Below the pieces are notes generated by a model, which saw nothing but the letters and a program-made list of their open reading frames with translations, was not told where the DNA came from and ran no database searches. Shown here piece by piece: positions 48,643 through 59,716 of a stretch of DNA of 64,000 bases. How positions within the stretch are numbered: the stretch's first letter is position 1; every line of letters begins with the position of its first letter. The stretch comes from Chitinophagales bacterium (lineage in GTDB: Bacteria; Bacteroidota; Bacteroidia; Chitinophagales; LD1), in the NCBI GenBank assembly GCA_016787045.1, contig JAEUVA010000008.1:425743-489742 (forward strand), given 5' to 3'. The position numbers and the translations under genes were made by a program.

Positions 48643-49095
48643 CTATTTGTTTTCTTGTTTTTGTTTAGGAATGACGTACCCCTTAAGGTACAACGTTTCG
48701 TTGCGCTTGGCCGTGTTGCAAAACAGGGTAACGGTTTTGGTTTGCTCGCCTTGCTTGTTGGCGCTATTAAATTCCACATCTAAATTGTAAGTACCCCCCG
48801 GCTTTAATGGCTCTTTGCTGTAGGTAGGTACCGTGCAGCCACAGCTTCCGCGTGCATCGGCAATAATAAAGTTGGTGGTGCCCACATTCTTAATCATAAA
48901 CGTATGCTTCACCACATCACCTTCGTTAATCGTATCAAATTCAAAAACCATACTATCTGAAAACTGCACCACTGCAGTATCTTGCAGCATGGTGGTGGCT
49001 ATTTTGTATTCCTCGGGTTGCTCACCGGGCTTGCGGCAACTGTAAGCAGCCACCAAAATGGTAATAGTGGTAAGGATTAAAAACGGGTTTCTCAT
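48643..49095 (-). CDS. DUF1573 lipoprotein
   Basis: This 150-residue protein has a lipoprotein-type signal (VAAYSC, Cys near 20) and a DUF1573 beta-sandwich with FEFDTINEGDVVKHTFMIKNVGTTNFIIADARGSCGCTVPTYSKEPLKPG, including the CGCT motif. The fold resembles immunoglobulin/ASH-type domains. Its function is unknown, but in Bacteroidetes it often precedes yajC, as here. Confidence 0.9.
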   Translation of the reverse strand: MRNPFLILTTITILVAAYSCRKPGEQPEEYKIATTMLQDTAVVQFSDSMVFEFDTINEGDVVKHTFMIKNVGTTNFIIADARGSCGCTVPTYSKEPLKPGGTYNLDVEFNSANKQGEQTKTVTLFCNTAKRNETLYLKGYVIPKQKQENK

Positions 49096-49231: not shown

Positions 49232-49289
49232 AAAAGTTTTATTCATCTATAATTTTTAGTAAAGTGGAATTCATGAAACATTTAGCAAT

Positions 49290-49372
49290 AAAAAAGCCCC
49301 GCAGATAGGCGAGGCGCTAAATGTTTTCACAACGGAATAATCCTTATTGTGATTTGCTTTCAAAAACGAATA
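49290..49372 (-). ncRNA. tracrRNA of the type II-C CRISPR system
   Basis: On the minus strand, TTTTGAAAGCAAATCACAA (49365 down to 49347) is the perfect 19-nt complement of repeat positions 2-20 in crRNA orientation. The tail continues TAAGGATTATTCCGTTGTG, a linker like that of other Bacteroidetes tracrRNAs. It then ends in a GCCTCGC / GCGGGGC hairpin with six T residues (49290-49315). The tracrRNA would pair with crRNA in Cas9 and, with RNase III, process it. Start near 49372 is inferred from the promoter box at 49379-49386. An outer 11-bp inverted repeat AAACATTTAGC / GCTAAATGTTT (49276-49286, 49316-49326) encloses the terminator. Confidence 0.9.
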
Positions 49373-49378
49373 TAAAAA

Positions 49379-49386
49379 CAAAAATA
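49379..49386 (-). promoter_or_regulatory. Predicted tracrRNA -7 box (TATTTTTG)
   Basis: This perfect TAnnTTTG match on the minus strand ends 14 bp before the anti-repeat. It lies inside the short cas9 leader, so tracrRNA and cas9 are divergent with overlapping control regions. Confidence 0.55.
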
Positions 49387-53754: not shown

Positions 53755-54720
53755 ATGATTAAGCGCACCCTCTTCTTCAGCAACCCCACGCACATTTACA
53801 AAAAAAATGAGCAGTTGTGCTTTTCTGTAAACCGAAAGGGCGAAACTGAGAATGAGGAGAAAGTGATAACTATACCTATAGAAGATATAGGGGTGGTGGT
53901 GCTTGACAATAAGCAAATTACCCTTAGCCATGCGGTAATGGATGCGCTGCTGCAAAACAATGCGGCCATTATTACCTGCAATGACCAGCACATGCCGAGC
54001 GGTATGTACCTGAACCTTGACGGACACCATACCCAAACCGAAAAGTTTAAAGCACAGTTAGAGGCCAGTGAGCCGCTAAAAAAGCAGCTTTGGCAGCAGA
54101 CGGTAAGTGCTAAGTTGAGGAACCAAGGGAAGTTGTTGCACCTGTTGGCCACCTCACCCCCAACCCCTCTCCTTAAAAAGGAGAGGGGGGAAAGAATGCT
54201 TGATGCTGCCGATTGGCTACTCTCCTTTTCGCGCGAAGTAAAAAGTGGAGATACCGATAACCATGAAGCACGTGGTGCTGCCATTTACTGGCAAAGTTTG
54301 TTTCCGGTTGAAATGAATTTTAGGCGAGAGCGGTTTGGTGAGCCGCCCAATAATCTGCTGAATTATGGCTACTCTATTTTGCGCGGGGTTGTAGCACGCG
54401 GGTTAGTAGCCAGTGGGGCATTGCCTACTTTAGGGATTTTTCACCGCAATAAATACAACGCTTACTGCTTAGCAGATGATATAATGGAGCCATACCGCCC
54501 TTATGTTGACCAAATTGTTTGCCGCATAATAAACAGTGGAGAGGACTGGAGGGAATTAACCCCTTCTATTAAAAAACAGTTTCTTGAAATTCCTGCTTTA
54601 GATATAGTAATTGATAATGAGCAAAGCCCATTAATGGTAGGTATGCAGCGCACGACCTCTTCACTGATGAAATGCTATGAAGGTGAGTTGAGAAAAATAT
54701 TGTATCCGGTATTAGAATAA
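53755..54720 (+). CDS. cas1: Cas1 integrase with an in-frame palindromic insert
   Basis: This 321-residue protein, with Cas2, inserts new spacers. The N-terminal beta domain (1-95) has IPIEDIGVVVLDNKQITLSH. The catalytic helical domain has E171 (NHEARGAAIYW), H230 (GIFHRNKYN) and D241/E245 (LADDIMEPYRPY), all intact. Residues about 133-147 (TSPPTPLLKKERGER) are encoded by a palindromic repeat (54164-54188) and interrupt the stretch between the KLRNQGKLLHLL helix and the DAADWLLSFSREVKSGD helix. The reading frame is preserved, so the protein may still work if the loop is tolerated. It is 14 bp from cas9, in the same operon. Confidence 0.95.
   Translation: MIKRTLFFSNPTHIYKKNEQLCFSVNRKGETENEEKVITIPIEDIGVVVLDNKQITLSHAVMDALLQNNAAIITCNDQHMPSGMYLNLDGHHTQTEKFKAQLEASEPLKKQLWQQTVSAKLRNQGKLLHLLATSPPTPLLKKERGERMLDAADWLLSFSREVKSGDTDNHEARGAAIYWQSLFPVEMNFRRERFGEPPNNLLNYGYSILRGVVARGLVASGALPTLGIFHRNKYNAYCLADDIMEPYRPYVDQIVCRIINSGEDWRELTPSIKKQFLEIPALDIVIDNEQSPLMVGMQRTTSSLMKCYEGELRKILYPVLE
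54164..54188. repeat. Palindromic repeat element inside cas1
   Basis: The perfect 11-bp inverted repeat CCCCTCTCCTT-AAA-AAGGAGAGGGG lies within codons 137-145 of cas1. It has the same CCCCTCT...AGAGGGG signature as the intergenic elements at 44.6, 54.7 and 55.4 kb, although the central bases differ. Confidence 0.85.
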
Positions 54721-55073
54721 ATACAACACACCCCTACCCCTCTCAAGAGGGGATAAATACACTATACAGCAGTGAAATAGTGTCGGTGTGTGGCTGTTCA
54801 TCCCCTCTTGAGAGGGGCGACACGAAGTGACGGGGTGTGTGGCTGTTTATCCCCTCTTGAGAGGGGCGACACGAAGTGACGGGGTGTGTGGCTGTTCATC
54901 CCCTCTTGAGAGGGGCGACACGAAGTGACGGGGTGTGTGGCTGTTTATCCCCTCTTGAGAGGGGAGTGCGCAGCATGTAGCTAAGCAGGGGTGTGTGGCT
55001 GTTTATCCCCTCTTGAGAGGGGAGTGCGCAGCATGTAGCTAAGCAGGGGTGTGTGGCTGTTAAATCAACACAA
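54721..55073 (+). repeat. Tandem palindromic elements between cas1 and cas2
   Basis: After an inverted element copy (CCCCTCTCAAGAGGGG at about 54734), three 49-bp units start at 54792, 54841 and 54890. Two 58-bp units start at 54939 and 54997. Every unit begins GGCTGTT(C/T)ATCCCCTCTTGA and contains the CCCCTCTTGAGAGGGG palindrome, and ends with GGGGTGTGT. The two unit types differ in the segment after the palindrome (CGACACGAAGTGACG against AGTGCGCAGCATGTAGC). No gene fits in this 366-bp gap. Confidence 0.95.
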
Positions 55074-55086
55074 TAAATATTACCTA

Positions 55087-55422
55087 ATGGCTATCCGACT
55101 AAACCAATACCGTATTATGTGGATACTCGTATTTTTTGACCTGCCCACCGAAACCAAGCAAGACAAAAAGAACTATACCAAATTTAGAGATGGTATGCTT
55201 GACGATGGTTTTACCATGTTTCAATACAGCATATATGTACGCCATTGCGCCAGCCGCGAAAACACCGAAGTACACCTTAAGCGCATCCGCTCCATACTAC
55301 CACCAAAAGGCAAAGTGGTTATTATGAACATCACCGATAAGCAGTTTGGCATGATGGAGATATTTGACGGGAAGGCAGAAGCCCCGCGACAAAAGTTGCC
55401 ACAGCAGTTGGAGATGTTTTAA
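55087..55422 (+). CDS. cas2: Cas2, spacer-acquisition subunit
   Basis: This 111-residue Cas2 begins MAIRLNQYRIMWILVFFDLPTET, where the strand ending FFDLP carries the conserved Asp. DGFTMFQYSIYVRHCAS and HLKRIRSILPPKGKVVIMNITDKQFG follow. Cas2 forms the central dimer of the Cas1-Cas2 integrase. The ATG at 55087 gives the conserved N-terminus; a longer start at 55051 would be encoded by the repeat tract. It is separated from cas1 by the 366-bp repeat tract and followed by a bidirectional terminator. No csn2 or cas4 is present, which fits type II-C. Confidence 0.95.
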   Translation: MAIRLNQYRIMWILVFFDLPTETKQDKKNYTKFRDGMLDDGFTMFQYSIYVRHCASRENTEVHLKRIRSILPPKGKVVIMNITDKQFGMMEIFDGKAEAPRQKLPQQLEMF

Positions 55423-55458
55423 CCGAGCAGGTAGTCTGATAGACGCTTTTCATGAATT

Positions 55459-55490
55459 GCAACACACCCCTACCCCTCTCAAGAGGGGAT
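55459..55490. repeat. Palindromic element downstream of cas2
   Basis: CAACACACCCCTACCCCTCT followed by CAAGAGGGGATAA repeats the element that starts the cas1-cas2 tract at 54722, in the same orientation. Confidence 0.8.
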
Positions 55491-55525
55491 AAAAAAAGCC
55501 CCGCCTTATGTTAAGCGGGGCTTTT
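55491..55525. terminator. Bidirectional terminator between cas2 and the CRISPR array
   Basis: The stem AAAAGCCCCGC / GCGGGGCTTTT has a 10-nt loop. It can stop cas operon transcripts on the plus strand and pre-crRNA on the minus strand, where seven T residues follow. Confidence 0.87.
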
Positions 55526-55594
55526 AAATCTCGTTTTTTGCTATCCTATTTTTGGCATAGAACCCGCACCAGTGCTACGTTTTAGTGGGGGTAT
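55526..55594. other. Cas-proximal array flank (possible leader)
   Basis: This 69-bp AT-rich stretch lies between the terminator and the first repeat. It contains a perfect TATTTTTG box at 55547-55554 on the plus strand, pointing into the array, but no matching -33 box. Whether spacers are added at this end cannot be told from sequence alone. Confidence 0.45.
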
Positions 55595-58500
55595 GTTGTG
55601 TAGCAAAGAACGAGAAATACATTTTGAAAGCAAATCACAACAAACTTATGTGTCTAAAGATAATACATCAAGTTGTGTAGCAAAGAACGAGAAATACATT
55701 TTGAAAGCAAATCACAACTAAAATGTTCCATTTCCATTTCTGGATGAGTTGTGTAGCAAAGAACGAGAAATACATTTTGAAAGCAAATCACAACGATTAA
55801 TTGGTTTAAAAAAACGTATGATTTGTTGTGTAGCAAAGAACGAGAAATACATTTTGAAAGCAAATCACAACGGATGCAATAGGTAATAGATATACATGCA
55901 GTTGTGTAGCAAAGAACGAGAAATACATTTTGAAAGCAAATCACAACCTATAACTACTCTCAGCAAACTCTCGGTCTGTTGTGTAGCAAAGAACGAGAAA
56001 TACATTTTGAAAGCAAATCACAACAATTTTCATTGTTCATAATTATTTGTTTAAGTTGTGTAGCAAAGAACGAGAAATACATTTTGAAAGCAAATCACAA
56101 CCCAATTTAGGAGTTTCAAAATTTACACTTGGTTGTGTAGCAAAGAACGAGAAATACATTTTGAAAGCAAATCACAACACGAATTGTACTTTACAACCAA
56201 TGCTGATAGTTGTGTAGCAAAGAACGAGAAATACATTTTGAAAGCAAATCACAACCTCTTCCAAACGCTCATCAACAATCTTTGGGTTGTGTAGCAAAGA
56301 ACGAGAAATACATTTTGAAAGCAAATCACAACAAATGGCAGATTGCGTAGATTTATTATCCGGTTGTGTAGCAAAGAACGAGAAATACATTTTGAAAGCA
56401 AATCACAACTTATTTAAAATTTCCCCACGCTTCGCATTTGTTGTGTAGCAAAGAACGAGAAATACATTTTGAAAGCAAATCACAACACCGCTGATAATGT
56501 TGACTTTTCGGGGATTGTTGTGTAGCAAAGAACGAGAAATACATTTTGAAAGCAAATCACAACCTACCCTGCATTTAGTGGGTTGAAAATTACGTTGTGT
56601 AGCAAAGAACGAGAAATACATTTTGAAAGCAAATCACAACATCGTTAACGAGATAGCCGCCACATCTAAAGTTGTGTAGCAAAGAACGAGAAATACATTT
56701 TGAAAGCAAATCACAACACATAAAGCAAGCGGGACGTTATAGGTAAGGTTGTGTAGCAAAGAACGAGAAATACATTTTGAAAGCAAATCACAACAAGTGT
56801 GGATTTGGACTGAGGCATTGTATGGTTGTGTAGCAAAGAACGAGAAATACATTTTGAAAGCAAATCACAACCCGCTCAACCTAACAACACTAAACAACTT
56901 GGTTGTGTAGCAAAGAACGAGAAATACATTTTGAAAGCAAATCACAACATAATGTATCTGCTGTGTACATTTATCGCCGTTGTGTAGCAAAGAACGAGAA
57001 ATACATTTTGAAAGCAAATCACAACCATACCCTGATGATAGGGTAACTGTTGAAGTTGTGTAGCAAAGAACGAGAAATACATTTTGAAAGCAAATCACAA
57101 CCTGTATTTAGATTTTTACCCAGCTATACCAGTTGTGTAGCAAAGAACGAGAAATACATTTTGAAAGCAAATCACAACTATCATACAAATGATAAGCAGT
57201 TTCTTCATGTTGTGTAGCAAAGAACGAGAAATACATTTTGAAAGCAAATCACAACTTGCCGTGTCAACAGTGGCGTTGACGGGGGGTTGTGTAGCAAAGA
57301 ACGAGAAATACATTTTGAAAGCAAATCACAACAAGCCGAGCGAAAGGCCGCGCGTAAGAAGTGTTGTGTAGCAAAGAACGAGAAATACATTTTGAAAGCA
57401 AATCACAACGTCCAATGTTTTGTTGCTTGAAGTAGTTTTGTTGTGTAGCAAAGAACGAGAAATACATTTTGAAAGCAAATCACAACGGAAATTTAATCAC
57501 CAACATACCGGCACAGTTGTGTAGCAAAGAACGAGAAATACATTTTGAAAGCAAATCACAACGAGTAGGCGTTAATCCGGCTTCAATGCTTTGTTGTGTA
57601 GCAAAGAACGAGAAATACATTTTGAAAGCAAATCACAACACAGGCATAAACGAATTAGACAAGGATTATGTTGTGTAGCAAAGAACGAGAAATACATTTT
57701 GAAAGCAAATCACAACAATTGACCAAAAAGCAAATAGGGATGCTGGGTTGTGTAGCAAAGAACGAGAAATACATTTTGAAAGCAAATCACAACCCCACAG
57801 TATAGTGGCAATGTGGCGTACAAGTTGTGTAGCAAAGAACGAGAAATACATTTTGAAAGCAAATCACAACAGTACCCATACAATGAAAAAGCAAAAACTC
57901 GTTGTGTAGCAAAGAACGAGAAATACATTTTGAAAGCAAATCACAACCAATTTTTAAAAGCTATACCATTGAAGTAGGTTGTGTAGCAAAGAACGAGAAA
58001 TACATTTTGAAAGCAAATCACAACTAGGTAGTTGTTTACTGCTTACGGAAAAAGGTTGTGTAGCAAAGAACGAGAAATACATTTTGAAAGCAAATCACAA
58101 CCCCCGCAAGTGTAGATATTTCAGAGAGCTAGTTGTGTAGCAAAGAACGAGAAATACATTTTGAAAGCAAATCACAACCTTCAGCTTCTTGCTTGGCCGC
58201 TTGTGCTTGTTGTGTAGCAAAGAACGAGAAATACATTTTGAAAGCAAATCACAACCTCAATTAAGTAAATACATATAATATTTAAGTTGTGTAGCAAAGA
58301 ACGAGAAATACATTTTGAAAGCAAATCACAACTATAGCAACGCGACAAAGCGGTAGAACTGAGTTGTGTAGCAAAGAACGAGAAATACATTTTGAAAGCA
58401 AATCACAACCAACCTGCGTTGTCGTTTTTGTTGGGCGTTGTTGTGTAGCAAAGAACGAGAAATACATTTTGAAAGCAAATCACAACGCACCTGCACCGCA

Positions 58501-59390
58501 GCCACAAACAGCTACTGTTGTGTAGCAAAGAACGAGAAATACATTTTGAAAGCAAATCACAACGCGTTTCGTTTTATTCAGTATCTCGTCTATGTTGTGT
58601 AGCAAAGAACGAGAAATACATTTTGAAAGCAAATCACAACAAAGCACCGGCAACGGCCAACGCGCCCAAAGTTGTGTAGCAAAGAACGAGAAATACATTT
58701 TGAAAGCAAATCACAACGGCTTGTGCTTGTACATGGTATGGTTTCCAGTTGTGTAGCAAAGAACGAGAAATACATTTTGAAAGCAAATCACAACGGTGGT
58801 AAATTGATGTTTTTGTTTTCATAGTTGTGTAGCAAAGAACGAGAAATACATTTTGAAAGCAAATCACAACCTTCTCAAATCTGCTATGCCGGTTATCCAT
58901 GTTGTGTAGCAAAGAACGAGAAATACATTTTGAAAGCAAATCACAACTCTGCAATACAGAGGCAAATGAGAGTGTAAGTTGTGTAGCAAAGAACGAGAAA
59001 TACATTTTGAAAGCAAATCACAACGGACGCAAAGGAATAGGTTTTGAATTAAAAGTTGTGTAGCAAAGAACGAGAAATACATTTTGAAAGCAAATCACAA
59101 CGAACACTATAAACACGTTGATAGATGCGTTGTTGTGTAGCAAAGAACGAGAAATACATTTTGAAAGCAAATCACAACTACATAGATAATACACACCGCG
59201 CTATTGAGTTGTGTAGCAAAGAACGAGAAATACATTTTGAAAGCAAATCACAACGCTACTGCGGCCAAGGCAATCCAAGGCAAGTTGTGTAGCAAAGAAC
59301 GAGAAATACATTTTGAAAGCAAATCACAACAACCTTGCCGCAGGCGCAACACAAGGCTGGTTGTGTAGCAAAGAACGAGAAATACATTTT
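55595..59390 (-). CRISPR. Type II-C CRISPR array, 50 repeats and 49 spacers
   Basis: Forty-nine full repeats of 47 bp appear identical and are followed by a truncated fiftieth (59360-59390). On the plus strand repeats start GTTGTGTAGCAAAGAACGAG and end GCAAATCACAAC. Forty-one spacers are 30 bp and eight are 29 bp, giving a 76-77 bp period. No two spacers appear alike. The crRNA strand is minus: read that way the repeat starts GTTGTGATTTGC, the form complementary to the tracrRNA anti-repeat. Transcription thus runs toward cas2, opposite to the cas genes. Each repeat contains TTTG-N19-GTTCTTTG on the minus strand, near the Bacteroidetes promoter consensus. Confidence 0.99.
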
Positions 59391-59463
59391 TAAACCGACC
59401 AACGGGAGGTTCGCGAATACCGCTTAAAATAAATTAGACCAAATGAGCAAAGCAAATCACACC
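59360..59463. repeat. Terminal CRISPR repeat split by a 58-bp insert
   Basis: The first 31 bases of the plus-strand repeat are at 59360-59390. The sequence then diverges for 58 bp. AAAGCAAATCACA, the matching 3' part of the repeat, reappears at 59449-59461, followed by two bases matching less well. The two halves together account for nearly a whole repeat. Confidence 0.75.
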
Positions 59464-59538
59464 TTGGGTTGCCCGGGTTGTTATTGCGGAGACTGCTTTA
59501 ATGAGATTTCTGAAGTTTTTGAAACTTTGAAAATCTAG
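59443..59538 (+). CDS. Possible 31-residue cysteine-rich microprotein
   Basis: An ATG at 59443 opens a 31-codon frame containing LGCPGCYCGDCFNEI and ending at TAG (59538). Four cysteines in CxxCxCxxC spacing could bind a metal ion or cluster. Its first codons coincide with the displaced CRISPR repeat half, so the start would be array-derived. No clear promoter or ribosome-binding site is seen, so it may not be expressed. Confidence 0.3.
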   Translation: MSKANHTLGCPGCYCGDCFNEISEVFETLKI

Positions 59539-59716
59539 CTTCTGTACTTAGCCGCTCTGGCGCCAGCGGCTTAGGGATAGTAGCGGAAAGCCCGCAGTAC
59601 CGATATAATCGGGACGAGGACTTGCAGCGGATAGCCCGACCTACCGATGCGAAGCACAGCCGGTAGCTGAGCGGATCGGGAGGTAAGCCCATTACAAAAA
59701 TGCAACTATCCACATC
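59539..59716. other. Intergenic region with hairpins upstream of pckA
   Basis: A strong hairpin AGCCGCT-CTGGCGCC-AGCGGCT lies at 59550-59571. It is followed by a GC-rich stretch with GCAGCGGATAGCCCGAC and GATCGGGAGG segments. These look like dispersed Bacteroidetes intergenic repeats, but no second copy is present in this window. No gene is seen. Confidence 0.45.

Follow-up and report, generated by a model that had tools for sequence, protein, structure and literature searches.

The window, a stretch of 64,000 nucleotides from the genome of a Chitinophagales bacterium, contains a complete type II-C CRISPR-Cas locus, in which cas9, cas1 and cas2 follow each other on the plus strand, the array comes next, and a tracrRNA gene is located upstream of cas9 (Table 1). 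The cas genes were called with NCBIfam profiles. Type II-C membership is indicated by cas9, a type II cas1 and cas2 together with a tracrRNA that carries an anti-repeat and a terminator, and by the polarity of the array, which is transcribed toward its acquisition end, against the direction of the cas genes. Among the proteins scanned, which comprise part of the ORFs of the window, neither csn2 nor cas4 was found. Between cas2 and the array, a GC-rich, palindromic hairpin flanked by A/T runs (55486–55536; terminator-like near 55513–55536) could act as terminator for the cas and the array transcripts alike. Tandem copies of DNA containing ATCCCCTCTTGAGAGGGG lie between cas1 and cas2 (54800–54945), and similar sequence occurs again after cas2, near 55473. 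Elsewhere in the window, the 30-bp sequence CATGAACCTGTCGGAAGTTTTTCCGAATGC is present five times at 798–1155, spaced by about 82 bp, and a small ORF on the minus strand (48643–49095) resembles the OS_HP2 (seleno)protein family NF041425 with 61.9 bits, below the cut-off of 100.

Table 1. Features of the type II-C locus (window coordinates)
Feature	Position	Strand	Remarks
Probable -7 box of the tracrRNA promoter, TATTTTTG	49379..49386	-	sequence read directly
tracrRNA	49289..49361	-	anti-repeat 49361-49346 with a hairpin and a GC-rich terminator after it; points away from cas9
cas9, 1448 aa	49394..53740	+	TIGR01865, 462.8 bits (cut-off 100)
cas1, type II	53755..54720	+	TIGR03639
cas2	55051..55422	+	TIGR01573
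cas2-array interval	55423..55594	.	acquisition (leader) side, downstream of crRNA transcription; spacer entry point after PMC6008519 (Riemerella)
CRISPR array	55595..59390	- (crRNA sense)	identical 47-nt repeats; 49 exact repeats 55595..59330; includes damaged copy at 59360
Candidate -7 box GTTCTTTG, repeat positions 31-38	55604..55611 (first copy)	-	TA of TAnnTTTG absent
TATTTCTC, repeat positions 23-30	55612..55619	-	site of TATCTTTG in most relatives; TA kept, TTTG lost
Candidate -33 box TTTG, repeat positions 8-11	55631..55634 (first copy)	-	read directly; recurs in every exact repeat
TTG, repeat positions 2-4	55638..55640	-	-33 box of the relatives' commoner register
Terminal repeat (the oldest, at the transcription-upstream end), in two parts about 57 bp apart	59360..59463	-	part with the promoter (59360-59390) intact; part that pairs with the tracrRNA (59448-59463) displaced, 14/16 bases kept

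The exact repeat, which reads GTTGTGATTTGCTTTCAAAATGTATTTCTCGTTCTTTGCTACACAAC on the minus strand, has 49 matches in the genome, all on the reverse strand, all within the array and none elsewhere; the 49 spacers are 29–30 nt long. The anti-repeat of the tracrRNA forms Watson-Crick pairs with the 5' end of the minus-sense repeat at 15 of 16 positions and is the only good anti-repeat, and the plus-sense repeat has no good anti-repeat partner anywhere in the window. Since the tracrRNA pairs with the minus-strand repeat and nothing pairs well with the plus-strand repeat, the crRNA sense is minus, as had been assumed in a preceding sequence-only reading of this DNA. The sequence AAAGCAAATCACACC at 59449–59463, also considered as tracrRNA, turned out to be the displaced end of the terminal repeat; the actual tracrRNA is the one at 49361. 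At about 100 loci, for example L160, L162 and that of the window, the tracrRNA promoter directly abuts the anti-repeat, so that the predicted start fixes the length of the crRNA duplex. No spacers common to the array of the window and arrays of the same genus were found. The repeat differs from that of a same-genus array (L063, genome G399) at 2 of 47 positions, yet the Cas9 proteins belong to distant clades and the tracrRNAs are unlike, so that reshuffling of arrays and cas genes has taken place in this genus.

In all 49 exact repeats, the minus strand carries TTTG at positions 8–11 and GTTCTTTG at positions 31–38, separated by the 19 bp of positions 12–30, exactly as the sequence-only reading had stated, and its description of a -7 box that retains TTTG and lacks TA is likewise accurate. 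Compared with a sigma-ABfr promoter, the repeat has the -33 element, i.e. TTTG/TTG some 19 bp ahead of the -7 box, but lacks a full TAnnTTTG, because GTTCTTTG and TATTTCTC represent half a box each. When positions 18–42 of the repeat were shuffled, TTTG-N18-21-nnnnTTTG arose in 5.1% of the sequences and TTG-N18-21-nnnnTTTG in 10.3%; the complete two-box motif appeared in 1.2% of them. Scored with the motif of the tracrRNA promoters (see below), GTTCTTTG is the best -7 site of the repeat, yet it reaches only 1.5 bits (p ~0.5 versus shuffles). Judged on the window alone, the two-box motif is weak and not compelling.

The forms of the box were counted in 210 upstream regions from 400 kb of the same genome. 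TAnnTTTG is about threefold enriched (48 versus 15.8 in shuffled sequences), and TTG-N18-21-TAnnTTTG occurs 10 times (1.2 shuffled). GTnnTTTG, the form present in the array, is hardly enriched in these regions (18 versus 12.4 shuffled; the other strand has 19), and its two-box form, TTG-N18-21-GTnnTTTG, shows no enrichment (1 versus 1.0). A search of the whole genome, with the array set aside, for TTTG-N18-20 followed by TAnnTTTG or GTnnTTTG gave no excess over the reversed pattern, but these counts are uninformative, since promoters are swamped by coding sequence. E. coli-type promoters in the array number 9, as against 10.3 expected. Among arrays of the same genus, one (L058, genome G409) has a perfect TATCTTTG at position 23, another (L062, G401) has TATTTTCG, and that of G399 shows the same form as the window.

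Type II-C loci gathered from two genome sets yielded 101 distinct Bacteroidota repeats, which were oriented by their tracrRNA-pairing 5' ends. The -7 motif was learned independently of the repeats, by unsupervised search of 107 tracrRNA-upstream sequences from the same loci, and proved to be TATaTTTGca, that is, the known Bacteroidota -7 box; an exact box is present in 67 of the tracrRNA promoters, and in these the frequency of TTG is highest 18–21 bp upstream of the box. Exact TAnnTTTG is present on the crRNA strand of 42 of the 101 repeats and on the antisense strand of none (3.1 in shuffled repeats). Scores at least equal to those of the lowest tenth of the tracrRNA promoters were reached by 79 repeats in sense, 3 in antisense and 21 after shuffling. 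The complete TTG-N18-21-TAnnTTTG was found in 35 of the 101 repeats in sense and in none in antisense, well above chance (1.3 in shuffled repeats, with a maximum of 6 in 500 shuffles), and a TTG lies at this distance from 35 of the 44 exact boxes, compared with 40% in shuffles (p = 1e-7). The excess of boxes persists when one array is kept per Cas9 cluster, at 80% identity (25.5 of 60 versus 1.7 shuffled) as well as at 65% identity (8.6 of 32 versus 0.8). No box is present on either strand of 30 repeats that belong to other CRISPR types of the phylum, although many of these repeats are GC-rich.

The box is perfect in nearly all Bacteroidales arrays, among them that of Caecibacteroides pullorum (L194), while Massilibacteroides vaginae (L165) has a near or degraded box, TACCTTAG. 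In the clade of the window, one-mismatch boxes prevail, and 13 of 18 distinct repeats reach the threshold, versus 4.4 by shuffling. About one fifth of the relatives have no good box of any kind, which means that not all systems depend on the promoter. The spacing noted in the window is thus conserved in related II-C repeats, and the embedded two-box promoter design is well supported for the Bacteroidota II-C family. The proposal of a repeat-embedded Bacteroidetes-type promoter, made from the window alone, accordingly holds for the family far beyond chance, but is weaker for the very array from which it was derived, where TA is missing and the remaining GTnnTTTG is unenriched.

The starts of the boxes span repeat positions 21–35 and cluster at 21–28, with a peak at 23–26, and at 31–32; none occurs at 29–30. 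Boxes of the first cluster are mostly located 18–21 bp from the TTG at positions 2–4. Those starting at 31–32 are 26–27 bp from this triplet, but 19–20 bp from the TTG at positions 9–11, which is part of TTTG 8–11. This second register is the one recognized in the window (TTTG 8–11, box at 31), and it occurs with an intact TA in relatives (TATCTTTG at 32 in L141, TAATTTTG at 32 in L140, TAAGTTTG at 31 in L107); it is, however, a minority arrangement, since most relatives have the box at 23–26 in combination with TTG 2–4. The Cas9 tree calls for at least 16 gains or losses of the exact box, and closely related arrays can use different registers (L141 at 32 versus L142 and L145 at 26; L107 at 31 versus L105 and L106 at 22). 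Six 36-nt repeats (L085, L087, L091, L095, L097, L109) have GATATT at positions 31–36, in several cases 19 bp after TTTG 8–11, and four 46-nt relatives (L136, L144, L128, L130) have GATATTTG/A at 32; these are possibly a variant -7 box that runs into the spacer. A clear preference for TG in the first two spacer bases, as would be expected if the 36-nt GATATT repeats borrowed the end of the box from the spacer, was not observed.

The pairing between repeat and tracrRNA separates the two elements. Across 84 loci, positions 1–15 of the repeat, which include TTG 2–4 and TTTG 8–11, are paired in 88–100% of cases, whereas from position 26 onward pairing is at background level (31–58% at positions 26–40). 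Complementarity to the tracrRNA thus suffices to explain the -33 part. It leaves the TTTG of the -7 box, which lies outside the duplex, unexplained, and it is very improbable that both TTTG elements are by-products of this pairing.

The TAnnTTTG of the relatives might also be maintained for another function of the repeat, such as Cas1-Cas2 integration or RNase III processing, and resemble a promoter incidentally. The repeat is under several constraints, and in type II systems its sequence is read by Cas1-Cas2. An integration signal should, however, keep its distance to the repeat end, whereas the distance of the box to both ends of the repeat varies (starts at 21–35) and that to TTG is fixed at N18-21, as in promoters. 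Besides, the box matches a motif learned from other promoters, occurs on a single strand and is positioned beyond the tracrRNA duplex. We therefore regard such an incidental resemblance as improbable.

A decayed repeat marks the transcription-upstream end of 32 arrays and the opposite end of 3. Transcription consequently runs toward the acquisition end, and a promoter in the leader cannot serve the array. The transcription-upstream flanks do not show an excess of -7 boxes over shuffles, neither in arrays with strong nor in arrays with weak repeat boxes. Mismatches in the decayed terminal repeats amount to 48% at positions 1–17 and 3.7% in the -7 box; the remainder of the 3' half is preserved equally well (likewise 3.7%), so that the decay pattern, while consistent with that in PMC12080349, does not single out the -7 box. 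The -33 TTG was lost in 15 of 27 terminal repeats, and one was present in 8; rescue of this element, considered for terminal repeats, is mostly absent. In the window, the splitting of the terminal repeat would block formation of a spurious crRNA from the extra repeat.

For the array of the window, the boxes may alternatively be a leftover or a coincidence, with the crRNAs derived from one long transcript that starts at the right end (59391–59716, minus strand) and is cut by RNase III with the tracrRNA. The lack of a good -7 site in the repeat, the lack of enrichment of GTnnTTTG upstream of host genes, the occurrence of the relaxed box pair in 5–10% of shuffles, and a divergent intergenic stretch of 325 bp upstream of the array all agree with such a transcript. 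That stretch, however, contains no convincing -7 box, the best candidate, TTGCTTTG, scoring 5.2 bits and lacking a TTG at the right spacing; the upstream flanks of weak-box arrays in general are no richer in -7 boxes than shuffles; and the identity of all 49 repeats, together with intact cas9, cas1 and cas2, makes the array look active. We give the single external transcript somewhat less than an even chance.

Promoters within the repeats are the reading that we prefer. The motif, its strand, spacing and conservation, and its position outside the duplex are computational results; that RNA polymerase uses the repeat promoter is our inference. Probably, each Bacteroidota II-C repeat doubles as a promoter of the sigma-ABfr type on the crRNA strand, the copy in the window being degraded. 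The primary (sigma-ABfr-type) sigma factor would recognize, as -33 box, one of the two TTG triplets at positions 2–4 or 9–11, which are fixed anyway by tracrRNA pairing, and as -7 box a TAnnTTTG situated 18–21 bp further on, beyond the duplex, at 23–27 or 31–32. The start is predicted about 5 bp past the -7 box, at or just before the spacer, and each spacer would thus be read from the adjoining repeat. Such promoters would suit the reversed polarity of the array, as new spacers are added next to cas2, where the transcript ends; the entry point of new spacers was described for Riemerella (PMC6008519, He 2018). We moderately favor the broader view that II-C repeats are two-box promoters for the sigma factor of the phylum, whose -7 box shifts between two registers, each in phase with a TTG fixed by pairing, and that every new spacer hence lands beside a promoter already in place, even though transcription does not proceed from the end that holds the leader.

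In the window, the promoter appears degraded in both registers: the commoner site has lost its TTTG (TATTTCTC), and the site of the second register retains TTTG without TA (GTTCTTTG). If used, GTTCTTTG would be weak at best, with a start near repeat position 43 when the -7 site is placed at -12 to -5 (PMC9723704). In our judgement, useful internal promoter activity is very probable for relatives with perfect boxes and somewhat less likely than not for the array of the window.

If correct, the proposal explains how the newest spacers are expressed in many Cas9 systems of gut and environmental Bacteroidetes in which the leader lies where the transcript ends, and leader-promoter annotations of such arrays would merit a second look. 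It points to a second making of the repeat-promoter design, under another sigma-factor code, and to a single repeat sequence that serves tracrRNA pairing and promotion together. It further predicts which arrays, that of the window among them, would be expressed weakly.

CRISPR1 of Riemerella anatipestifer, a II-C system with a 47-nt repeat, resembles the present locus in gene order, in the anti-repeat upstream of cas9 and in repeat length. In contrast to the design proposed here, its authors report no repeat promoter and put forward putative leader promoters instead (PMC5006608); the comparison follows their statement, and for promoter prediction they cite the BDGP neural network. For Flavobacterium columnare (PMC8092290) and F. 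psychrophilum (PMC10309648), which belong to the same phylum, a -33 TTG at the start of every II-C repeat has already been proposed, with thin transcript support (eight reads in PMC8092290; PMC10309648), and TAnnTTTG was named for cas9, not for the repeat (PMC10309648). These proposals comprise TTG only, whereas the full two-box form occurs in other families, mainly in repeats of 46–47 nt; TAnnTTTG is absent from the 36-nt GATATT-ending repeats of a genus of the same class (L085, L091, L097, L098), which are possibly of the Flavobacterium kind. A repeat promoter consisting of TTG is thus not new. What appears to be new is the presence of a conserved -7 box in the repeats, together with its two registers and its location beyond the tracrRNA duplex, as no report of these features was found in the literature searched, which included few subscription papers. 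Repeat-embedded promoters as such are established for Neisseria and Campylobacter: in work cited in PMC12080349 and PMC7038990, the II-C systems of Neisseria meningitidis and Campylobacter jejuni are described as having a promoter in every repeat and as reading crRNA toward the acquisition end, as proposed here. The promoter of Neisseria is an extended -10 element within the final nine bases of the repeat, whereas the Bacteroidota repeats carry a -7/-33 pair, mostly at positions 23–31 of a 46–47-nt repeat.
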